Assembly (NCBI RefSeq): GCF_030815865.1
Contig: NZ_JAUSXI010000001.1
Location: 1,178,001 to 1,242,000 of the forward strand
Length of the DNA stretch: 64,000 nt
Direction of reading: 5' to 3'
Source: Arthrobacter globiformis
GTDB lineage: Bacteria > Actinomycetota > Actinomycetes > Actinomycetales > Micrococcaceae
Shown here: positions 3,375-53,095 of the stretch, piece after piece
Position numbering within the stretch: the first letter of the stretch is position 1
Layout: every line of letters begins with the position of its first letter
The notes under the pieces: model-generated
Told to the model about the DNA's origin: nothing
Database searches by the model: none
Seen by the model: only the letters and a program-made list of their open reading frames with translations
Made by a program: the position numbers and the translations under genes

Positions 3375-3520
3375 GCCGGCTGCGGGGTAGGTGCGCGCCG
3401 GGCTGCCCGCCGCCCCGCGGTGTGTCAGCCCACGCGGCCACAGTTTGCAGACGCGATCCCGGCGTAGGACAATAGCCTCTGTGACAGCTGTCACCGCTCA
3501 ATTGAATATGCCTTTGATCT

Positions 3521-3775
3521 GCGGCGGGAGAGTCCTGCAAGTAGGTACAAGCAGGCGCCGTAGGAGCAAAACCTCCCCAGGAATCTCTCAGGCCCATGTA
3601 CCGCCGCGGCAAGGCAACTCTGGAAAGCAGCAGGCTGCCCGTATTGAATGTTCCGCCTCCGCGCGGACGGTTCAGGGCATGCTGTGCTCACCGACGGTGC
3701 AAGCGGAGCTGTGCGTAGGCGCAGCAACGCGGAAACTCTCAGGTCCGATACAGAGCGGGGAGGAACCCGAATCAC
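3521..3775 (+). promoter_or_regulatory. Tandem glycine riboswitch (two aptamers)
   Basis: Aptamer 1 (about 3521-3630) has the glycine-riboswitch core GCGGGAGAGTCCTGC, then GCCGTAGGAGC, AATCTCTCAGGC and CTCTGGAAAGCAG. Aptamer 2 (about 3680-3775) repeats the pattern with CACCGACGGTGC, CTCTCAGGTCC and GAGCGGGGAGG. The element ends about 40 bases before gcvP. In this class glycine binding usually turns on glycine cleavage genes. The RNA would sense glycine for the whole gcv-glyA-sdaA run that follows. Confidence 0.9.
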
Positions 3776-32953: not shown

Positions 32954-33129
32954 CTCCCAAAGGCGCCAGGCCGGATGCCGCCGTCCTGTCTGACATCTGC
33001 AGGCAGGATGACCTACCACTTGTGCACAGTGAATATAACGGAATTATTACTGCGCCCCTTAATCATCTATAGTTAAACGGCAACGCCGATGCACAAGCGT
33101 TACCTGATCTGGAGCCGAACCTTGCCAGC

Positions 33130-33332
33130 AGATCAGTAGCACGAGTCACCCACTGGCAGGGGCGGGGGAACCACAACCGGCTGTTCTTACAGCCTTGGGG
33201 TGAAGTCCGCAGCAGCAAGTCTCTTCCGCAGAAGGAATCCTCCCGGGATACCCCTGTGCCGGAATGGCTTGTTATGGCGGGCCGGGTCCGAACTCTCTGA
33301 CCCGAATCCGACAGCTAACTTCGCAGGCTATC
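33130..33332 (+). promoter_or_regulatory. c-di-AMP riboswitch (ydaO-yuaA type) 1
   Basis: Core elements are CAGGGGCGGGGGAACCAC at 33157-33174, CCTTGGGGTGAA near 33193, and the highly conserved 3' block CCGAATCCGACAGCTAAC with TTCGCAGGC at 33302-33328. This class binds cyclic di-AMP and usually lowers expression of downstream wall hydrolases. A TATAGT -10 candidate lies at 33068-33073. The rest of the gap 32954-33349 shows no gene. Confidence 0.9.
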
Positions 33333-33349
33333 CAGAGAGGAAGCAGTAC

Positions 33350-34314: not shown

Positions 34315-34478
34315 CCACCGCTCAAGGTCCGTTCGCATTACATCGTCTGGCAGGGGCGGGGGAACCAATTTTGGTCTTCGCAAGAAGGCCTTGGGGTTAA
34401 GTCGCAAAGCTTCTCAGGAAGCGGAGCGGCCGGGTGCACTCCCATCCGAATCCGACAGCTCACCTCGCAGGCATTGGG
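34315..34478 (+). promoter_or_regulatory. c-di-AMP riboswitch (ydaO-yuaA type) 2
   Basis: Repeats the core of the first element: GGCAGGGGCGGGGGAACCAA at 34349-34368, CCTTGGGGTTAAG near 34390 and CCGAATCCGACAGCTCACC with TCGCAGGC at 34445-34472. It occupies most of the 311-base gap before the NlpC/P60 gene and ends 14-20 bases before its start. Confidence 0.9.
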
Positions 34479-34491
34479 AGAGGCTACCTTC

Positions 34492-44562: not shown

Positions 44563-45214
44563 AGCGGTCCAGTCTCCTTTCAAGCACGGACTGCCCGGAG
44601 GAGAGCGCCAGGCAAATGATCCAGTAGACCAGGGCAGCCTCGAGATACAGCACCATGAACTCCTGGCTGAAGGCCGCGATCTGCTGGGCGTTGCGGAACA
44701 GCTCCGTGACCAGGATGAGCGAGGCCAGCGACGTGTCCTTCACCAGCGAAATGAAGGTGTTGGACAGCGGCGGCACGGACACCCTCGCAGCCTGCGGCAG
44801 GATGATGCGGCGCAGCGACTGGCTTCGGGACATGCCGATGGTGTGGCCGGCTTCCCACTGGCCCTTGGGCACCGACAGGATGGCGGCCCTGATGACCTCG
44901 GCCGCATAGCCGCCGATGTTCAGCGAAAAGGCGATGATGGCGCTGGGCCATGGATCGAGCTTCACGCCCAGGCTCGGCAGGCCGTAGAAGATTACAAAAA
45001 GCTGCACCAGAAGCGGGGTGCCGCGGATCACCGAAACGTAGAACCGCGCCAGACCGGACACCACGGCGTTCCGGCTTAGCCGCATCAGCGCCACCAGCAG
45101 CGCCAGCGCGAGGCCGATGGCGAATGAAGCAAGCGTCAGCGGGATGGTGCCGGTGACTGCGCCCGTGACAATAGGGCCGAAGGAGCTCCAGATGAGATCC
45201 CAGTTCGACGGCAT
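44549..45214 (-). CDS. Polar amino-acid ABC transporter, permease
   Basis: A 221-residue inner-membrane permease of the HisM/GlnP family, with about five helices. It shows the N-terminal TGTIPLTLASFAIGL, the conserved VIRGTPLLVQLFVIFYGLP, and the ATPase-contact EAA loop GYAAEVIRAAILSVPKGQWEAG. It starts directly after the binding-protein stop codon and overlaps the ATPase gene, so translation is coupled. One permease is found, so a homodimer is expected. Confidence 0.94.
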   Translation of the reverse strand: MPSNWDLIWSSFGPIVTGAVTGTIPLTLASFAIGLALALLVALMRLSRNAVVSGLARFYVSVIRGTPLLVQLFVIFYGLPSLGVKLDPWPSAIIAFSLNIGGYAAEVIRAAILSVPKGQWEAGHTIGMSRSQSLRRIILPQAARVSVPPLSNTFISLVKDTSLASLILVTELFRNAQQIAAFSQEFMVLYLEAALVYWIICLALSSGQSVLERRLDRYVAH

Positions 45215-46036
45215 CTACTTGGTGACGTCCGTGCTGAAGTACTTGTCCGAGACCTTGGCCAGCGTCCCGTCAGCACGGAGGTCGTCCAGCGCCTTGTCTA
45301 CCGCCTTTGTGAGCTCCGTGGAGCCCTTGCGGAACACGAAGGCGCTTTCGGACTTCTCCTTGGTTTCAGCGGCGATCTTCAGCCCGGCATCCGGATTGGT
45401 CTTCGCGTAGTCGAGATAGGTGAGCTTGTCATTGACGATGGCGTCCACGCGTCCCTGCCGGACCAGCGTCACGCCTTGAGCCCAGCCCTCCACGGACTGC
45501 ACATTGGCGCCCGCGTCCACGGCCAACTTGTAGAAGTTGCTGGTGAGCGACTGCGCTGTGGTCTTGCCCTTGAGGCTCTCAAAGCTGGTAATGCTGCTGT
45601 TGTCCGCCTTCGTCACGATCACGCCCGTGGAGACGGTGTACGGCTTGGAGAAGTCGTACTTGGCCTTGCGTTCCGCGTTGATGGAAATCTGGTTGGCGAT
45701 GGTGTCGAACCGCTTGGCGTCGAGGCCGGCGAATATCCCGTCGAACTGGGTTTCCTGGAAGGTGGCCTTCACTCCGAGCTTGTCAGCCACGGCGCGGGCG
45801 ATCTCGACGTCGTAGCCGGTCAGGTCGCCGGCTCCCTCCGCGTGGAAGCTAAAGGGCTTGTAGGTGCCCTCGGTGGCGACGACGATCTCGCCCTTGGATT
45901 TCACATCGCTGAGTGACGTGTCCGAGTTGCTGGCAGCCGGAGCCTGGGAACCCCCGCCGCCGCAGGCCGTCAGAGCCAGTGCCAGTCCGGCAAGGGTGGC
46001 CGCAAGAGCGGAGCGGCGGGAATGGACACGGTTCAT
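45215..46036 (-). CDS. Polar amino-acid ABC transporter, substrate-binding lipoprotein
   Basis: A 273-residue receptor with a lipobox LALTACGGGG (Cys25). The mature part has the type II fold of polar amino-acid receptors: IVVATEGTYKPFSFH, DLTGYDVEIARAVADKLGV, FDGIFAGLDAKRFDTIANQISI and RVDAIVNDKLTYLDY. The last two resemble cystine-binding proteins (TcyA/FliY group), a suggestion only. It is the first gene of the transporter operon; the 298-base region upstream holds its promoter and the terminator of the next operon. Confidence 0.93.
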   Translation of the reverse strand: MNRVHSRRSALAATLAGLALALTACGGGGSQAPAASNSDTSLSDVKSKGEIVVATEGTYKPFSFHAEGAGDLTGYDVEIARAVADKLGVKATFQETQFDGIFAGLDAKRFDTIANQISINAERKAKYDFSKPYTVSTGVIVTKADNSSITSFESLKGKTTAQSLTSNFYKLAVDAGANVQSVEGWAQGVTLVRQGRVDAIVNDKLTYLDYAKTNPDAGLKIAAETKEKSESAFVFRKGSTELTKAVDKALDDLRADGTLAKVSDKYFSTDVTK

Positions 46037-46180
46037 GGCGGGTACCCTTCTTCAGGCTGCTGCGGTAGGCATCGCGGCGGCCGGATCCGGCTCCCGCGGT
46101 GCCAGTGCCTGCAACGCATTGGCAAAGACCTTTTATTTCGCCATCATACGGGGGCTGGGGGTTCTGAAAGGCGGGCCGTT

Positions 46181-46223
46181 AAAAAGGCTGAGTGGGGGCG
46201 GTCCCCAACGGCCGCCACCACTC
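46181..46223 (-). terminator. Intrinsic terminator of the double-HTH/membrane cassettes
   Basis: On the minus strand, GAGTGGTGGCGG pairs with CCGCCCCCACTC (one mismatch) across a 10-base loop, followed by AGCCTTTTT. It lies about 110 bases after the last cassette gene. Confidence 0.75.
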
Positions 46224-46334
46224 ATCCCCCCAATGTGCGATCCGGCAGGCGCCACAGCTTGTGAGCCAGGCAGCAACTACTTTCACACATTCATGATTCT
46301 CTCACGGTCTAATGATTTTGTGAATCCCGCTCCG

Positions 46335-47072
46335 CTACCTTTCGGTAGATGACGTTCCGTGACTCCCACGGCTGGCAACCTTGACGCGTGCCAGCCAGAC
46401 CAGAATAAGGCCGGATATGTAGAAAACCACCGCCCCGTTGTTCACCGCCGGCGCGACGACGAGGAGCTGGGGCGGCGCAAATTCAAGGCAGAGACCGGCC
46501 ACAGTGGCCACCGCTCCGGCCGCCATCAGGGCCGCCCCGGTCCTGATGAGCGGGGGCAGGCTTTCCTTGACGCTGCGGAGCAGGGCAGGCAGCAGTGCCA
46601 GCGAGACGTAAGCCACGTAGCCCCGCGCGGCAGCCCAGTAGTACGGAAGCAGGGCCTCATTCCGGGCGCTGACCGCGCCGGCATCCCTGAAACGCACTGA
46701 CGAGGGGGCCGGTTCCATCATAAGGAAGACCGTCACGAGGCCAGCTGAGAAAATCGCGAGCATGCCCAGCCCCGGACGCCCGGCGATCATGCGGTGGGCG
46801 TCGGGGGCACCAAACCCCTTCGTGACGCGGACTGCGATGAGGAAGATCGTGGCGAAAACAATCAGGCGCAGCAGGACGTGCGCAATGTTGACTCCGCCGA
46901 GGGCTCCGTCGATGGCCATGTAGAACTGTTCGATACTCAGGACTGCGGCAGCCGTCGCCAGCAGGAAGATGAAGAACAGGGTTGGGTTCAGTCCGCGCAG
47001 TGCGCTCGGAATCCGGGCCAGGGCGGCACCGGCGCACACAACCAGTGTTATCCACGGGAGAATTTCGCTCAT
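46335..47072 (-). CDS. Polytopic membrane protein, cassette A
   Basis: A 245-residue membrane protein with about seven hydrophobic helices, starting MSEILPWITLVVCAG and ending in a short polar tail. It is homologous to the cassette B membrane protein (residues such as LARIPS/LSRIPN, AIDGALG/AIDALLG, VLLRLIVFATIF/LLLRFIIFGAIF align), with roughly a third of positions identical by eye. The topology recalls the MAB_1171c-like putative transporters found beside XRE regulators in actinobacteria, but I cannot confirm the family. The ATG overlaps the stop of the upstream HTH gene (ATGA), so the two proteins are probably made together. The function is unknown: transport, signalling, or anchoring of the regulator are all possible. 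Confidence 0.8.
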   Translation of the reverse strand: MSEILPWITLVVCAGAALARIPSALRGLNPTLFFIFLLATAAAVLSIEQFYMAIDGALGGVNIAHVLLRLIVFATIFLIAVRVTKGFGAPDAHRMIAGRPGLGMLAIFSAGLVTVFLMMEPAPSSVRFRDAGAVSARNEALLPYYWAAARGYVAYVSLALLPALLRSVKESLPPLIRTGAALMAAGAVATVAGLCLEFAPPQLLVVAPAVNNGAVVFYISGLILVWLARVKVASRGSHGTSSTER

Positions 47073-47815
47073 ACCAGGTTCTCCCAGATTCTTTCGGTCT
47101 GTTCCTGGTCCTGCTCCTGCCGCCGGAGGGTCTTGCCCAGCGCCTGGAGGCGTTCGCCGGCCAGGGCGGCCAGGTCGCCGTCGCTGAGCCGGTCCAGGGC
47201 CGCCTGCCGTGCGCCCGGCGGCCAGCCGGCTTCCGCTTCGGTCACCAGCCCCGTAGCCACCAGTCCGCCGGCCAGTCCGACGCCGGCAGCCCGGGAGGTG
47301 GCGACGGCAAGTTCCGGGGCGAGCCGGTTGGCGGTCAGTTGAGCGGAGTAGTTCTGCGGGGCGACGCCGGTAGCGGCGGAGACGCGGTGCCGGAGTTCGC
47401 CGTCGTCGATTGCGTCCACCCAGTTCTTCACGGAAGTGGCATGCGGCGGCGGGCTGAGTTCCGGCTGGCCAGTAGCCGTGCAGCCTGTGCCGGTGGAGCC
47501 CATGGGTGCGGTGCGGACAATGACGGCACGCAGCAGGTCGACGGTGGCGATTTGGCTTACCAGTTCCTTGTCGGAAGGAGGGAGGGAGGAACTGGCGAGG
47601 TCGCTGTACGTGTCAAAGGTGGCCAGCGCGGCGACCGGATTGATGTTGTAGGCCCGGCTGATGCTCACGACAGTAGTCTCGGCAACCTTTCCCCGCACCA
47701 GCTGCTGGGCGAGGGTGGTGCGCTTGACCCCGGAGACCCTGCAGATATCGGCCGTGCTGGTGTCCGGTGCCACGCCATTTAGCCAGCGCTGGAATGCTTT
47801 GGCGGGGAGGGGCAT
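47069..47815 (-). CDS. Double helix-turn-helix (XRE-like) regulator, cassette A
   Basis: A 248-residue soluble protein. An XRE-type HTH occupies about residues 20-66 (VSGVKRTTLAQQLVRGKVAE, then SRAYNINPVAAL). A second, similar HTH lies at about 140-185 (ATGVAPQNYSAQLTANRLAP, then SRAAGV); residues 27-55 and 148-176 align without gaps. Between them is a variable linker, and a charged helix (ERLQALGKTLRRQEQDQ) ends the protein. Residues 120-208 are identical to 117-205 of the cassette B protein. It is translationally coupled to the membrane protein downstream. A DNA-binding role is inferred from the HTH pattern only. Confidence 0.82.
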   Translation of the reverse strand: MPLPAKAFQRWLNGVAPDTSTADICRVSGVKRTTLAQQLVRGKVAETTVVSISRAYNINPVAALATFDTYSDLASSSLPPSDKELVSQIATVDLLRAVIVRTAPMGSTGTGCTATGQPELSPPPHATSVKNWVDAIDDGELRHRVSAATGVAPQNYSAQLTANRLAPELAVATSRAAGVGLAGGLVATGLVTEAEAGWPPGARQAALDRLSDGDLAALAGERLQALGKTLRRQEQDQEQTERIWENLV

Positions 47816-47851
47816 GAAACGCTCTCTGGTGAACGAATGGTTGAGTCGATA

Positions 47852-48586
47852 CTAACGGCGTTCGCCGCGCAACGGCCGGTGATTCCGGCCGGCCCGGCTG
47901 CTGGCCACCCAGATGAGTGCCAGGCCGACGACGAAACACAGGATGGCCGTGTAGTTAACGACGAAGCGCAGGAACCCCAGCCCCGGCGGGACGACGGGGA
48001 ACAACAACGAAAGGGGGATCGCGATGCTGCCCACGGCCAGAAGCGCCGCGCTCATCCGGAGCAGCGCGGGCAGCGGGCTCCGGATGGCTCGCAGCATCCC
48101 CGGCAGGATCGCGAGACACACGAACGCCGGGTAGGCACGCCCGGCGGCGCCGTAATACTCCACGAGGAGGGCGTTCTGCTGATTCTTGGCCGCCACCTCT
48201 ACGAGCCCCGCCGACGATCCCGACGTGTCCATCAGGACAAAGCAGACCACCAGCACGGCAGAAATCAGTCCCAGGGCAAGCATGCCGGTGCGGCCCCGCA
48301 TCAGCTGGATTCCGCGGCTGTCCCCGAACCCGGCAGCAATCCGAAGGGCAAGGAAGAAGATGGCCCCGAAGATGATGAAGCGCAGCAGCAGGTTGGCCAC
48401 GTTGGCACTGCCGAGCAGGGCATCGATCGCCAGATAGGGACCGTCGATGCTGAGCAGGATGGCCAGTGTCAGTAGCGCCAGAGCGTAGAAGATGGAGCTG
48501 TTCTTCCGGCGGATCAGGTTCGGGATTCTGCTCAGCGTGGCCGCGCCGGACGCGATCAGCGTGGTCCACTGCAGGATTTCAATCAT
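47852..48586 (-). CDS. Polytopic membrane protein, cassette B
   Basis: A 244-residue membrane protein with about seven helices, homologous to the cassette A protein but clearly diverged. It begins MIEILQWTTLIASGAATLSRIP. A loop (SSAGLVEVAAKNQQNALL) near the middle aligns with SSVRFRDAGAVSARNEALL of copy A. A short basic tail (GRNHRPLRGERR) is cytoplasmic-looking. Its ATG overlaps the stop of the HTH gene by four bases. The stop lies 36 bases upstream of cassette A, so both cassettes may share one transcript. Confidence 0.8.
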   Translation of the reverse strand: MIEILQWTTLIASGAATLSRIPNLIRRKNSSIFYALALLTLAILLSIDGPYLAIDALLGSANVANLLLRFIIFGAIFFLALRIAAGFGDSRGIQLMRGRTGMLALGLISAVLVVCFVLMDTSGSSAGLVEVAAKNQQNALLVEYYGAAGRAYPAFVCLAILPGMLRAIRSPLPALLRMSAALLAVGSIAIPLSLLFPVVPPGLGFLRFVVNYTAILCFVVGLALIWVASSRAGRNHRPLRGERR

Positions 48587-49320
48587 CCGAGGTTCTCCCA
48601 GATCGTTTCGGTTTGTCGTTGGTCGTGTTCTTGCCGCCGCAAGGTCTTGCCGAGCGCCTGGAGGCGTTCGCCGGCCAGAAAGATCAGTTCGCCGTCGGTC
48701 ATGCTATCCAGGGCAGCTTGCCGGGCACCGGGCGGCCAGCCGGCTTCGGCTTCGGTCACCAGCCCCGTTGCCACCAGTCCGCCGGCCAGTCCGACGCCGG
48801 CGGCCCGGGAGGTGGCGACGGCAAGTTCCGGGGCGAGCCGGTTGGCGGTCAGTTGTGCTGAATAGTTTTGCGGGGCGACGCCGGTGGCGGCGGAGACGCG
48901 GTGGCGGAGTTCGCCGTCGTCGATTGCGTCCACCCAGTTTTTCACTGAGGTGGCATGCGGCGGCGGGCTGAGTCCGGGTGGCCCTGTGCCTTTACCTGTG
49001 CCGGCGTCCAGCTCGGTGCGGGCGATGATGGCGTGCAGCAGGTCCGCGGTGGCGATCTGGCTGACCAGTTCCTGCAGCGTGGGCGGGATCGGCGGTTTTC
49101 CCAGATCCCGGTAAGGCTCAAAGGAGCCCAGCGCTGCCATCGGATTAATATTGAAGGCCCGGCTGATCCCCACCACGGTTACCTCGGCCACCTTCCCGCG
49201 GACCAACTGCTGGGCCAGGGTGGTGCGCTTGACCCCTGACGCCCTGGCCACATCAGCAACGCTGGCATCCGGCGCGACGCCGTGCAGCCAGCGCTGGAAA
49301 GCCTTGGCGGGTAGGGGCAT
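48583..49320 (-). CDS. Double helix-turn-helix (XRE-like) regulator, cassette B
   Basis: A 245-residue paralogue of the cassette A regulator. The first HTH (ASGVKRTTLAQQLVRGKVAE, then SRAFNINPMAAL) is about 80 percent identical to copy A, the linker (about residues 68-116) differs strongly, and residues 117-205 are identical. The second HTH lies inside that identical block. The start ATG lies 192 bases from the divergent ABC-F gene, so the promoter of the whole four-gene run should be in 49321-49400. The function is unknown; DNA binding is inferred. Confidence 0.82.
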   Translation of the reverse strand: MPLPAKAFQRWLHGVAPDASVADVARASGVKRTTLAQQLVRGKVAEVTVVGISRAFNINPMAALGSFEPYRDLGKPPIPPTLQELVSQIATADLLHAIIARTELDAGTGKGTGPPGLSPPPHATSVKNWVDAIDDGELRHRVSAATGVAPQNYSAQLTANRLAPELAVATSRAAGVGLAGGLVATGLVTEAEAGWPPGARQAALDSMTDGELIFLAGERLQALGKTLRRQEHDQRQTETIWENLG

Positions 49321-49377: not shown

Positions 49378-49406
49378 TTTACGTAGCGCGCCGCTTCAAC
49401 TATGCT
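49378..49406 (+). promoter_or_regulatory. Candidate promoter of the ABC-F / ABC exporter operon
   Basis: TTTACG and TATGCT separated by exactly 17 bases. The predicted start of transcription (about 49413) falls at the foot of the hairpin at 49415-49459. Confidence 0.5.
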
Positions 49407-49414
49407 AAGTGGTC

Positions 49415-49459
49415 GAACCCGCTGGTCCGTACACCCCCCAAGTCCGGACCAGCGGGTTC
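49415..49459 (+). promoter_or_regulatory. Leader hairpin / possible attenuator before the ABC-F gene
   Basis: 15-bp perfect stem GAACCCGCTGGTCCG / CGGACCAGCGGGTTC with a 15-base loop, followed by TTTC. It lies in a divergent promoter region where no upstream gene needs a terminator, and 57 bases before the ABC-F ATG. Confidence 0.6.
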
Positions 49460-49515
49460 TTTCATGCCCGCCTGATTTTTCGGGTGAAAACGGGCAGCGG
49501 TGAGAGGATGGATTG

Positions 49516-51185
49516 ATGACTGCAACCCTTGTTGCGAAGGACCTTTCGGGCGGTCGTGATCACCGCACCCTCTTCTCCGGGCTGTCCCTAACAGTGGCCC
49601 CCGGGGACGTCGTTGGCGTCGTCGGCGCCAACGGTGCGGGCAAGTCCACACTGCTGCGGCTCCTTGCCGGCGTGGACCAGGCGCAGGACGGCACAGTTAG
49701 CCTCGCACCTGCCGACGCCTTTGTGGGCTGGCTGCCGCAGGAGCATGAACGGCTCGCCGGCGAAACCGTCGCCGCCTACATCGCCCGCCGCACAGGCTGC
49801 GCGAAGGCCACCGCGGAGATGGAATCCACGGCTGAGGCCCTCGGCTCGGGAGCGCCCGGAGCGGACGATGCCTACTCGATGGCCTTTGACCGGTGGATGG
49901 CCTCCGGCGCCGCGGACCTGGACGAACGGATAGCCCCCGTCCTGGCGGACCTGGGCCTGGACGTCGGCCCCGACGCCGAAATGACCGGGCTGTCCGGCGG
50001 CCAGGCTGCGCGCGTGGCGCTCGCCGCCCTGCTGCTGAGCCGCTTCGACGTCGTGCTCCTCGACGAGCCCACCAACGATCTTGACCTGGACGGCCTAGCC
50101 AAGCTGGAGGCCTTCGTGCAGGGGCTTCGCGGCGGCGCGGTGCTGGTATCCCACGACCGCGAGTTCCTGGCCCGCTGCGTGACTTCCATCGTGGAGCTGG
50201 ACCTGGCCCAGAACTCTGTGGCCGTGTACGACGGCGGCTATGAGGCCTTCCTGGAGGAACGCGCCGTGGCCCGCCGGCACGCCCGCGAACGCTTCGAGGA
50301 ATTTGCCGCGACCAAAGCGGACCTCGTGTCCCGCGCCCGCACCCAGCGGGAATGGAGCTCCCAGGGCGTCCGGAACGCGATGAAGAAAAACCCGGACAAC
50401 GACAAGATCCGCCGGGCTGCCAGCTCCGAATCGTCGGAGAAGCAGGCGCAGAAGGTCCGGCAGATGGAATCGCGCATCGCCCGCCTGGACGTGGTGGAAG
50501 AACCGCGCAAGGAATGGCAGCTGCAGTTCAGCATCGGCCAGGCGCCCCGCTCCAGCTCTGTGGTGGCAACGCTGCGCGACGCCGTCGCGCGGCAGGGCAG
50601 CTTCACCCTGGGGCCGGTCAACCTGCAGCTCAACGCCGGTGAACGGATCGGCATCACCGGACCCAACGGCGCCGGCAAATCGACGCTGCTCCGGCTGCTT
50701 CTCGGAACCCAGGAACCGGACTCCGGCGACGCTTCCCGCGGGGTGTCGGTGGCCGTCGGCGAGATCGACCAGGCCCGCGGGCTGCTGGCCGGTCAGCGGA
50801 AACTGGCGGACGCCGTCGAAGCCGTCCTGACCGACTACACACCCGCCGAAGTCCGAACGCTGCTGGCCAAATTCGGCCTCAAGGCGGACCACACCGCGCG
50901 CAGCGTGGACTCGCTGTCGCCGGGGGAGCGGACCCGCGCCGCCCTGGCCCTGCTGCAGGCCCGCGGCGTGAACCTGCTGGTCCTGGACGAGCCCACCAAA
51001 ACCACCTGGACCTGCCCGCCATTGAACAGCTCGAGGAAGCACTCGACAGCTACGACGGCGCACTGCTGCTCGTCACCCACGACCGGCGGCTACTGGAAAA
51101 CGTCCGTCTTGACGCGCGCTGGAACGTCGAGAACGGCGTCGTCACCGAGCTGCACGCCGATGCCACGAAAGGCAGCACCACATGA
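49516..51185 (+). pseudogene. ABC-F family ATPase (ribosome-associated/antibiotic-resistance type), frameshifted
   Basis: A soluble twin-ATPase without membrane helices. Domain 1 has Walker A GANGAGKSTLLRLLAG and signature LSGGQAARVALAAL; a charged linker (about residues 235-330) separates it from domain 2, with GPNGAGKSTLLRLLLG and LSPGERTRAALALL. The frame breaks at 50995-51000: the expected DEPTNHLDL reads DEPTKTTWT because AA has become AAAA. Beyond it the normal C terminus (PAIEQLEEALDSYDGALLLVTHD, by the shifted frame) runs to a TGA at 51183-51185 that overlaps the next ATG. Repair gives about 555 residues. ABC-F proteins act on ribosomes. As read, Walker B and switch of domain 2 are lost. 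Confidence 0.85.
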
Positions 51186-53095
51186 GCATGGACCGGGTCG
51201 CCTGGAGCTCCCTCTACAACATCACCCGCGCCTCGAGCGGGTCCAAACCGTTCTCGAAGGCGACGCTGAAGCGGGTCTTCAGCTTTGCCCGCCCCCACCG
51301 CGGCAAGCTGATCGCCTTCGTGCTGCTGTCCATCGTGATGGCCGTCCTGGCGGTGGCCACCCCGGTCCTCGCCGGGCAGGTGGTCGACGAGATCATCGCC
51401 CATGCGGATGCCGGAACCGTGATCGGGCTCGCCGTCCTGATCGCCATCGTGGCCGTGGCGGAAGCCGGGCTAGGCCTGCTGACACGCTGGTTGTCGTCCA
51501 CGATCGGTGAAGGCGTGATCCTGGATCTGCGGACCAAAGTCTTCGACCACGTCCAGAAGATGCCGATTGCCTTCTTCACCAGGACCCGCACGGGAGCCCT
51601 CGTGAGCCGGCTGAACAACGACGTCATCGGAGCGCAGTCAGCCTTCGCAGGCACGCTCTCCGGCGTGGTCAGCAATGCCGTGGCCCTCGCGCTGACCCTG
51701 GCGGTCATGCTCAACAAGTCGTGGCTCGTGACAGTGCTCGCCATGGTCCTGCTGCCGATCTTCCTGATCCCGGCCCGAAGGATGGGCTCCAGGCTGGCCG
51801 ACCTGCGGCGCGAGGCGGCCGAACACAACGCCACCATGGGCACCCAGATGACCGAGCGCTTCTCCGCGCCCGGCGCCACCCTGGTCAAGCTCTTCGGCCG
51901 CCCCGATGAGGAGTCCCGCGAGTTCGCACTCCGTGCCGGCCGGGTCCGGGACATCGGCGTCCGCACCGCCATGCTGCAGTTCACCTTCGTCACGGCGCTG
52001 ACCCTCGTCTCGGCCCTGGCCCTCGCCCTGGTCTACGGTCTGGGCGGCTGGCTCGCGCTCGCAGGGCAGCTGGCCGCGGGCGACGTCGTTGTGCTCGCAC
52101 TGCTGCTCACCCGCCTCTACGCGCCGCTCACTGCGCTCTCGAACGCCCGCGTGGAAATCATGAGCGCCCTGGTCAGCTTCGAGCGCGTTTTCGAAATCCT
52201 GGACCTCAAACCGCTCATCCAGCAGAAGCCCGACGCCGTCGCCTCCCCGAGCGGTCCGCTCTCGGTGGAGTTCGACAACGTCCGCTTCGCTTACCCCTCC
52301 GCGGACAAGGTCTCGCTGGCCTCCTTGGAGGACGTGCGGACCCTGGACACCCGCGGCGGCGTAGACGTGCTGCACGGCATCAGCTTCCGGGTTGAACCTG
52401 GGCAGACGGTGGCCCTCGTCGGGTCATCCGGAGCCGGGAAATCCACCATCGCGCAACTCCTTTCGCGCCTGTACGACGTCGACTCGGGCGCCGTCCGCTT
52501 CGGCGGTACGACGCCCGGCACCGGCGTGGACGTCCGCGACCTCACCTTCGATTCGATGCGGCAGACCCTCGGCATGGTGACGCAGGACGGCCATCTGTTC
52601 CATGAGAGCATCGCCTCCAACCTGCGCCTGGCCCGCCCGGAGGCCACCGACGAGCAGATGTGGGACGTGCTGCGCCGGGCCCGGCTGGAGGAGATGATCA
52701 GGTCCCTGCCCGATGGCCTGGACACTGTGGTGGGGGAGCGCGGCTACCGGCTTTCCGGCGGCGAACGGCAACGCCTGACGATCGCCCGCCTGCTGATTGC
52801 GCAGCCGCGTGTGGTCATCCTCGACGAAGCCACCGCTGCGCTGGACTCCACCAATGAGGCCGCAGTCCAGGCGGCGCTGGGGGCTGCCCTTGAGGGGCGC
52901 ACCGCCGTCGTTATTGCCCACAGGCTCTCAACGATCCGTGCGGCTGACGCCATCCTGGTGGTGGAGGATGGCCGGATCGTGGAGCGCGGAACCCACACGG
53001 AGCTGCTGGCCGCGGACGGCCGCTACGCCGAGCTGTACCGGACCCAGTTCGCCGAGGCCACGGCCGTGGCGGAGGAAGCGGTCCCGGAGTACTAA
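51182..53095 (+). CDS. ABC exporter, fused membrane and ATPase domains
   Basis: A 637-residue half-transporter that would act as a dimer. Six helices occupy about residues 40-330 (LIAFVLLSIVMAVLAVATPVLAG is the first), with the coupling segment FFTRTRTGALVSRLNNDV. The nucleotide-binding domain (about 355-620) has Walker A GSSGAGKSTIAQLL, signature LSGGERQRLTIARLLIA, Walker B VVILDEATAALDS and AHRLSTIRAAD. It resembles multidrug or lipid exporters (ABCB/MsbA group). Its ATG overlaps the true-frame stop of the ABC-F gene, so it is coupled to it. A pairing of ribosome protection with efflux would fit drug resistance, which is an inference. Confidence 0.93.
   Translation: MSMDRVAWSSLYNITRASSGSKPFSKATLKRVFSFARPHRGKLIAFVLLSIVMAVLAVATPVLAGQVVDEIIAHADAGTVIGLAVLIAIVAVAEAGLGLLTRWLSSTIGEGVILDLRTKVFDHVQKMPIAFFTRTRTGALVSRLNNDVIGAQSAFAGTLSGVVSNAVALALTLAVMLNKSWLVTVLAMVLLPIFLIPARRMGSRLADLRREAAEHNATMGTQMTERFSAPGATLVKLFGRPDEESREFALRAGRVRDIGVRTAMLQFTFVTALTLVSALALALVYGLGGWLALAGQLAAGDVVVLALLLTRLYAPLTALSNARVEIMSALVSFERVFEILDLKPLIQQKPDAVASPSGPLSVEFDNVRFAYPSADKVSLASLEDVRTLDTRGGVDVLHGISFRVEPGQTVALVGSSGAGKSTIAQLLSRLYDVDSGAVRFGGTTPGTGVDVRDLTFDSMRQTLGMVTQDGHLFHESIASNLRLARPEATDEQMWDVLRRARLEEMIRSLPDGLDTVVGERGYRLSGGERQRLTIARLLIAQPRVVILDEATAALDSTNEAAVQAALGAALEGRTAVVIAHRLSTIRAADAILVVEDGRIVERGTHTELLAADGRYAELYRTQFAEATAVAEEAVPEY

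Follow-up and report, generated by a model that had tools for sequence, protein, structure and literature searches.

A conserved gene pair for a double-HTH regulator and a seven-helix membrane protein in Arthrobacter globiformis, divergent from a predicted hairpin RNA

LytTR regulatory systems, e.g. HdrRM and BrsRM of Streptococcus mutans, have a two-gene operon that encodes a DNA-binding regulator and then a polytopic membrane protein. This two-gene logic is an experimentally tested precedent (PMC6193735). A second point of comparison is the MAB_1171c family (NF042915), an uncharacterised family of membrane proteins labelled "putative transporter" in the database. With respect to RNA, the 6C RNA has two stem-loops with C-rich loops, and B11 of M. 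abscessus is related to 6C. The locus described here is in Arthrobacter globiformis and shares the LytTR order of genes. It displays a predicted tandem-HTH regulator encoded directly before a predicted seven-helix membrane protein (7TM), and the pair is divergent from another unit. Sequence comparison shows what this unit is: in the chromosomes of seven genera of the family it is a short RNA predicted to form a hairpin, and on most of the plasmids opened it is a transfer-type operon.

All positions given are those of the window, i.e. the entire 64,000-nt stretch of DNA that was analyzed. Two cassettes are found on the minus strand. HTH-A (48583..49320) encodes a 245 aa double-HTH regulator, as assigned from the open reading frame and its sequence, and is followed by 7TM-A (47852..48586), a 244 aa seven-helix membrane protein that is predicted to be N-out/C-in. 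HTH-B (47069..47815) encodes a 248 aa double-HTH regulator, the copy modelled with AlphaFold2, and is followed by 7TM-B (46335..47072), a putative seven-helix membrane protein of 245 aa. Each HTH gene overlaps its 7TM gene by the four bases ATGA (48583-48586 and 47069-47072), and 36 nt (47816-47851) separate the cassettes. The arrangement, overlaps and spacing agree with a preliminary description of the locus; the terminator it placed after the second cassette was not recovered, as a consensus scan of the minus strand at 45000-46335 found no terminator-like site.

HTH-A and HTH-B are 81% identical, 7TM-A and 7TM-B 40%. The DNA identity of the two HTH genes is 92-98% between 48730..48929 of HTH-A, which encodes the second HTH, and its counterpart at 47216..47415 of HTH-B (both minus strand), versus 50-90% elsewhere. 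The proposal that the duplication reflects two inputs fits these values, since the regulators are alike while the membrane proteins have diverged. However the full double cassette was found in just 5 of 80 named loci and in 2 of 197 genomes. Arthrobacter globiformis NBRC 12137 (L153) also has a double cassette.

The two HTH halves of the regulator go back to an internal duplication. An hhalign comparison of the profile of residues 1-100 with that of residues 118-248 gives a Prob of 90.7 (E 1.2e-6), whereas the best of 60 column-shuffled control profiles reaches a Prob of only 6.4. The two HTH units per regulator and the gap-free alignment of residues 27-55 with 148-176, both noted earlier, were reproduced in this profile comparison. 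The AlphaFold2 model of HTH-B (mean pLDDT 91.6) shows two helical HTH lobes, with HTH1 at about residues 5-74, HTH2 at about 128-209 and a predicted 36-residue C-terminal helix at 212-247. At E<=1 no Pfam HTH family matches the window proteins. A Foldseek search with the HTH-B model yields no related solved structure at E<=0.001, and a PDB sequence search with the regulator profile gives nothing below E 0.1. PHROG 16278, annotated merely as "HTH DNA binding protein", matches HTH-B at 3e-16, with the best stretch at residues 8-70. A phage origin of the regulator was considered and rejected: there were no matches in 50,697 phage records, and none of 18 pattern stretches in viral contigs was confirmed.

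The pair is highly conserved in the Arthrobacter family. Among 197 genomes, 64 of 68 strong 7TM matches have the regulator directly upstream, so homologues are not mostly apart from each other, and all 83 HTH-7TM junctions in the 80 named loci show the four-base overlap. Every sampled genome of the own genus (12/12) and every annotated plasmid record opened (8/8) has the pair. The regulator is more conserved than the 7TM in 99.6% of 3003 locus pairs. These sequence comparisons strongly support the view that the coupling between the soluble double-HTH protein and the 7TM is conserved. The word "obligately", used in the preliminary description, is too strong, because double-HTH genes without a 7TM (L100, L101 and L102), two solitary strong 7TM matches (G018:C1 and G026) and extra 7TM genes lacking their own HTH also exist. 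The extra genes follow the pair in 20 of the 80 named loci, in the order H-M-M or H-M-M-M. As a whole, the earlier interpretation is partly supported. It did not include the hairpin on the opposite strand, the occurrence of the pair on plasmids or the kinship of the 7TM to MAB_1171c.

The AlphaFold2 model of 7TM-A (pLDDT 87.0) shows seven membrane helices with short loops. The model and a positive-inside count (93/93 sequences) both point to an N-out/C-in orientation, which would place the conserved residues Y51, D55, N62 and S125 at the outer face. Comparison with the seven-helix part of the MAB_1171c family gives an hhalign Prob of 99.3 (E 1e-20) over 223 columns, and a plasmid-type 7TM homologue matches NF042915 at 2e-9. 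By these profile scores the 7TM is a distant relative of this family. Neither 7TM-A nor 7TM-B matches NF042915 itself (curated score 100 bits) at E<=1. The MAB_1171c family carries the C-terminal domain DUF6545, whereas 7TM-A stops after helix 7, and Pfam finds no DUF6545 in either window 7TM. In two loci (L069 and L070) the gene before a MAB_1171c-type gene is not a double HTH but one whose match to M78/ImmA stays below the cut-off. For the 7TM-A model, too, Foldseek yields no related solved structure at E<=0.001, and the PDB search with the 7TM profile gives nothing below E 0.1. Structural matches to GPCRs and other solved 7TM receptors are no higher than the helical-bundle background. Rhodopsins have a retinal-binding lysine in helix 7; residues 205-235 of 7TM-A, which contain helix 7, have no lysine.

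The database label of MAB_1171c raises the question of whether the 7TM transports a substrate under the control of the double HTH as dedicated regulator, so that the two genes would be coupled only in their expression. An M. abscessus MAB_1171c mutant, reported to have about 50% less biofilm mass, points in the same direction. However the window proteins have no transporter match in Pfam or NCBIfam, the modelled 7TM-A consists of seven helices and short loops, and the HTH-B model has two HTH units and a helix with no further folded domain. We regard this explanation as rather improbable. No characterised transporter with an already described regulator, the case that the preliminary description had set against itself, was found among the matches.

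The predicted divergent RNA is on the plus strand, with its hairpin at 49415..49459 and the C-run of the loop at 49434-49439. A -10-like TATGCT (49401..49406, plus strand) lies 8 nt before the hairpin stem, and a -35-like TTTACG (49378..49383, plus strand) lies 17 nt before the -10-like hexamer; both were assigned from the sequence. The TTTACG is held within a conserved GATTTTACG block, which could be an operator as well. The -10-like hexamer is present in 36 of 38 distinct elements and in none of the 38 when the opposite strand is read, most of the hexamers coming from related loci. The predicted RNA has one stem-loop with an invariant CCCCCA loop, a run of C5-C6 and a covarying stem. There are 107 cells changed on both sides of the stem versus 37.2 in shuffles, and none of 500 shuffles reaches the observed value; two of five covariation measures are weaker and are reached by 21 and 30 of 500 shuffles. 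A DNA-operator reading of the hairpin was rejected: the stems differ completely across genera and show compensatory changes, which an RNA fits better.

The covariance model matches the window hairpin at 49412-49469 with 68.4 bits, a site that was itself among the rows used to build the model. In the 197 genomes it finds 50 sites of at least 50 bits, in seven genera, and each of the 50 has a divergent double-HTH gene at a distance of 48-142 nt. With stricter filters that drop weak matches, no site of at least 50 bits was found in 16 of the 66 genomes in which the HTH match is strong (10 of the 16 are genus g24). The 238 genomes of other families within a 258-genome sample of the order have no such site either. 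Four genomes of genus g19 have an RNA match (47.0, 47.0, 46.9 and 38.7 bits) and no HTH match, thus the RNA is not merely a dependant of the pair. In the three g19 loci opened, the RNA adjoins an ABC exporter.

The neighbours of the RNA vary from genus to genus. The next plus-strand gene in the window is ABC-F, and a similar gene is found in 79 of the 80 named loci; in genus g7 the gene beside the RNA is an ABC exporter. The hairpin may therefore be considered as a 5′ leader or attenuator of these divergent ABC genes that lies by chance beside an autoregulating HTH-7TM pair, and the g19 loci, which keep the RNA by the exporter with the pair absent, are in accord with this. However in genus g28 (L098) the RNA is present and is directed at the 3′ end of a neighbouring gene, which we take to be RNase J-like, and in g32 (L093), which has the RNA as well, the plus strand has no called open reading frame until about 350-400 nt beyond it. 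With all 50 strong RNA sites adjoining an HTH gene, a leader function appears unlikely.

In the own genome, exact complements of the loop core occur at 4 sites versus 3 in the control, and none outside the RNA is directly before a called gene. RNA targets are unsupported because the complements are neither enriched nor placed directly before genes. At least six G residues stand right before the start codon in 9 of 141 HTH genes, one of the nine being without the RNA. This is a weak hint, from sequence, that in two genera the RNA may feed back on the HTH gene.

On plasmids, the pair is divergent from a transfer-type operon in 6 of the 8 annotated records opened; the Arthrobacter plasmid pAsp15-1 is an example. 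The plasmid location, the gene overlap with the HTH gene first, and one distant homologue with weak, below-cut-off HTH_3 and addiction-antidote matches would suit a toxin-antitoxin or defence pair in which the HTH protein is the antitoxin and regulates its own operon. Against this, the pair is in every own-genus genome sampled with similar surroundings in most named loci, the partner is a 245 aa 7TM, and the sole PADLOC match is weak (DpdE, E 0.013, 61 residues of HTH-B). Such a function is very improbable.

We favor the pair as a membrane-coupled transcription switch, with a probability of about one half. Translational coupling would favor a regulator-7TM complex, and the 7TM would hold or free the regulator in response to a signal received on its outer side (Y51, D55, N62 and S125), perhaps gripping it by its C-terminal helix. 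The regulator would bind the shared intergenic region and set its own operon together with the unit opposite, be it the RNA or the transfer operon. Like 6C-type sRNAs, the RNA may use its C-rich loop to pair with other mRNAs at G-rich ribosome-binding sites, and extra 7TM copies with near-identical or single regulators may add signal specificities.

More tentatively, and with some doubt, the pair may represent a new class of signal transduction in which a receptor-like 7TM keeps a covalent HTH pseudo-dimer at the membrane. Its release or capture would set a dedicated divergent C-loop sRNA that retunes mRNAs with G-rich ribosome-binding sites, and plasmids would set conjugative transfer with the same pair. 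If true, this would also offer a first idea of what the 7TM part of the MAB_1171c family does, and the family would become testable as sensors instead of transporters. It would also provide a membrane-to-transcription route with no kinase, protease or anti-sigma factor in the pair, present in every sampled genome of the genus, whose output is a small RNA on the chromosome and DNA transfer on plasmids.

None of the window proteins reaches a Pfam or NCBIfam cut-off. The RNA is without an Rfam family match (none at E<=1 at the window site), and RF01066 (6C) has no match anywhere in the own genome. Among the matches listed in a title search of open-licence literature, none concerned the HTH-7TM pair or the hairpin RNA. 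The C-rich hairpin loop is shared with 6C and B11, however the window RNA is a single stem-loop, whereas B11 has two C-rich loops (PMC10470900). The regulator differs from XRE/434 Cro-like repressors in having two lobes per chain and a long C-terminal helix. Unlike the LytTR systems, which have a LytTR DNA-binding domain, the window regulator is a double HTH with no LytTR Pfam match at E<=1. LytTR operon promoters are preceded by direct repeats of about 9 bp with a spacing of 11-13 bp; before the window operon no such repeats were found, and those present are 53 and 99 nt apart (window copy only), and the divergent hairpin RNA also sets the window system apart. The best reading of these comparisons is that the pair probably regulates the unit divergent from it through a coupling to the membrane, LytTR-like in its working but outside of the LytTR systems.

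HTH-A (48583–49320) and 7TM-A (47852–48586) form one cassette of a double-HTH regulator and a seven-helix membrane protein, and HTH-B (47069–47815) and 7TM-B (46335–47072) form a second, all on the minus strand. The gene calls confirm the layout in the preliminary description, i.e. an ATGA overlap of four bases within each cassette and a 36-base gap separating them; a terminator had also been placed after the second cassette, and a terminator-like site was not found there. In the window the two regulators are 81% identical and the two membrane proteins 40%. The genome is 5.11 Mb in one contig. The nearest named proteins are from Arthrobacter and the relatives' family was thus taken as Micrococcaceae.

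Searches of 197 genomes of this family for 7TM and HTH gave 7TM matches in 76 and HTH matches in 72. The HTH gene is directly upstream on the same strand for 64 of the 68 7TM matches above 100 bits; the remaining four are two extra tandem copies (genomes G086 and G187) and two lone genes (G018:C1 and G026). A detected 7TM is directly downstream of 67 of the 77 HTH matches above 100 bits. Eight of the other ten were examined: five have a diverged 7TM downstream (loci L079, L080, L081, L082 and L099), and no 7TM was found downstream in L100–L102. By match coordinates the four-base overlap is present in 29 of the 64 pairs and most others are no more than about 20 nt apart; the overlap also appears once start codons are chosen, e.g. 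L016, L022, L027, L031 and L061. Of the 258 genomes in an order-wide sample, 238 are from other families, and these show HTH matches in six (best E-value 1e-13) and 7TM matches in eight (best 7e-32). Six of the eight are in frames of 336–433 aa, as in types of MAB_1171c, an uncharacterised membrane family ("putative transporter") distantly related to the 7TMs.

The best 80 of 196 related loci from genome contigs, all from Arthrobacter, Pseudarthrobacter, Paenarthrobacter or other Micrococcaceae, display the gene orders H-M (52), H-M-M (14), H-M-M-M (6), H-M-H-M (5), M-H-M-M (1) and H alone (2), where H is the HTH gene and M the 7TM gene. In the two H-alone loci (L206 and L216) the sequence stretch stops shortly after the HTH gene. 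The four-base overlap occurs at every one of the 83 H-to-M junctions in the 80 loci.

Two full cassettes in a row are found at five of the 80 loci and in two of the 197 genomes (G000 and G009). The second 7TMs of these five loci and of the window form one clade (support 100/99), to which the second 7TM of an A. pascens H-M-M locus also belongs. In four tandem loci the regulators are 79%–82% identical and the 7TMs 39%–46%. DNA identity between HTH-A and HTH-B is 92%–98% at alignment positions 401–600 and 88% at 351–400, and is 50%–84% elsewhere, except for 90% at 651–700; this local high identity may reflect gene conversion in the second HTH. In 99.6% of 3003 pairs from 78 named loci, conservation is higher for the regulator than for its own 7TM (medians 0.73 and 0.51), which may mean that the regulator is kept constant and the sensor varies. 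Six loci (L164, L168, L172, L174, L186 and L191) have a single regulator gene with three successive diverged 7TM genes behind it, and the last copies belong to a clade on a long stem.

A predicted hairpin RNA of 45 nt with 15 perfect pairs is at positions 49415–49459 on the plus strand, between HTH-A and the ABC-F gene. The folding z-score is −5.4 for the 68-nt stretch 49408–49475. A hairpin with at least five loop C residues, encoded on the other strand from the HTH gene, lies upstream of 109 of 141 HTH genes (those with 150 nt or more of upstream sequence; identical proteins entered a single time), among them 74 of the 78 HTH genes from named loci; the four without it are second copies in tandem loci. 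The loop CCCCCA is common to 24 chosen elements from seven genera and the stem covaries. In these elements 91.4% of cells are paired (71.3% shuffled), 107 cells are changed on both sides (37.2 shuffled) and the covariation score is 0.680 (0.293 shuffled), none reached in 500 shuffles; relatedness inflates the shuffles. Weaker measures are pairs changed on both sides (15 of 19 vs. 12.2; reached by 21 of 500 shuffles) and further pair types (38 vs. 34.3; 30 of 500). With the partners slid, no more than 27 both-side cells are obtained vs. 107 for the proposed pairing, a comparison biased towards the proposed pairing by its derivation from the same 24 sequences. A −10-like hexamer (4/6 or better) is found 5–12 nt before the stem in 36 of 38 distinct elements on the C-loop strand and in 0 of 38 on the other (shuffled upstreams: average 5.1, maximum 12, 200 shuffles), and the 10 nt that follow the stem have a T content of 4.3 vs. 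1.8; many of the 38 are from one genus and hence not independent. No Rfam family matches the hairpin RNA, and RF01066 has no match in the window's genome. Among Rfam-type elements elsewhere in the window, two c-di-AMP riboswitches separated by about 1.2 kb (33103–33344 and 34317–34487) and one glycine riboswitch (3515–3613) are on the plus strand.

Covariance model R1 was made from elements that adjoin HTH genes, and its run over the 197 genomes gave 50 sites of at least 50 bits in 50 genomes of seven genera (19 of these genomes also supplied model rows). Each of the 50 has a divergent double-HTH gene at a distance of 48–142 nt (median 74.5); none of this strength was found away from double-HTH genes in the whole-genome scan, nor among the 238 genomes of other families. 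Lower-scoring matches, reaching down to about 30 bits, occur in scattered places, and the strict search filters lose weak matches. Of 66 genomes with a strong HTH, 16 have no site of this strength (10 from genus g24, four that carry plasmid-type genes, G078 from g28 and G181 from g23), and four g19 genomes have RNA matches of 38.7–47.0 bits and no HTH match; both counts speak against a strict link. At three g19 loci (L277, L278 and L279) the RNA match adjoins an ABC exporter and the pair is absent. A g24 genome, with its pair elsewhere, has a C5-loop hairpin of 39 bits (L280:2533–2590) between what we take to be sirtuin-like and IclR-like genes, possibly an RNA acting from another site. The next gene varies between genera, which counts against the RNA as leader of one gene.

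Regulator homologues are also in 30 plasmid records, of which nine were examined; eight of the nine carry annotation. In all eight a 7TM relative is the next CDS (E ≤ 9e-46 with profile A3, which contains one of these 7TMs) and another operon lies divergently from the pair. The divergent operon has SCO6880-family genes in five (L282, L283, L284, L286 and L289), with TrbC/VirB2 in L282, L286 and L289; L288 has a T2SS/T4P/T4SS-family ATPase and a TadE/TadG gene. In the stretch covered, L285 and L287 have only ParA, M23, DUF6668 or hypothetical annotations. The operons of the six records other than L285 and L287 are probably transfer-type. No strong RNA match is near the plasmid-type pairs L067, L080, L081 and L099.

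The window ABC-F frame (49516–51510, plus strand) has 664 aa, vs. 553–569 aa called in five own-genus relatives (L085–L089), and runs past the start of the next gene at 51182, as if shifted near its 3′ end. In L069, L070, L072 and L073 a small-protein gene directly precedes a MAB_1171c-type 7TM gene; an HTH-like gene precedes it in L070 and L072, and in L069 and L070 the small protein has an M78/ImmA match below cut-off. Such an arrangement may be a relative of the pair that includes a protease. Small membrane protein genes (about 4–6 predicted helices) adjoin distant HTH-7TM pairs in opposite orientation in L064, L066, L068, L074, L096 and L103; that of L068 has a PAP2 match just under cut-off (26.2 of 27.2 bits).

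What stays the same across the sequences compared is a double-HTH gene closely linked to a 7TM gene, the two lying head to head with a further transcription unit. On the best reading the pair would sense something outside the cell and set the divergent unit. By analogy the RNA would act as C-loop sRNAs do, e.g. B11 of M. abscessus, for which C-rich loops are reported as required to repress an mRNA with a six-G tract (PMC10470900). Regulator/membrane-protein pairs of such layout are described as working in S. mutans as LytTR regulatory systems (PMC6193735). The regulator family and upstream repeats of the window pair differ, and it would thus work like these systems without belonging to them.
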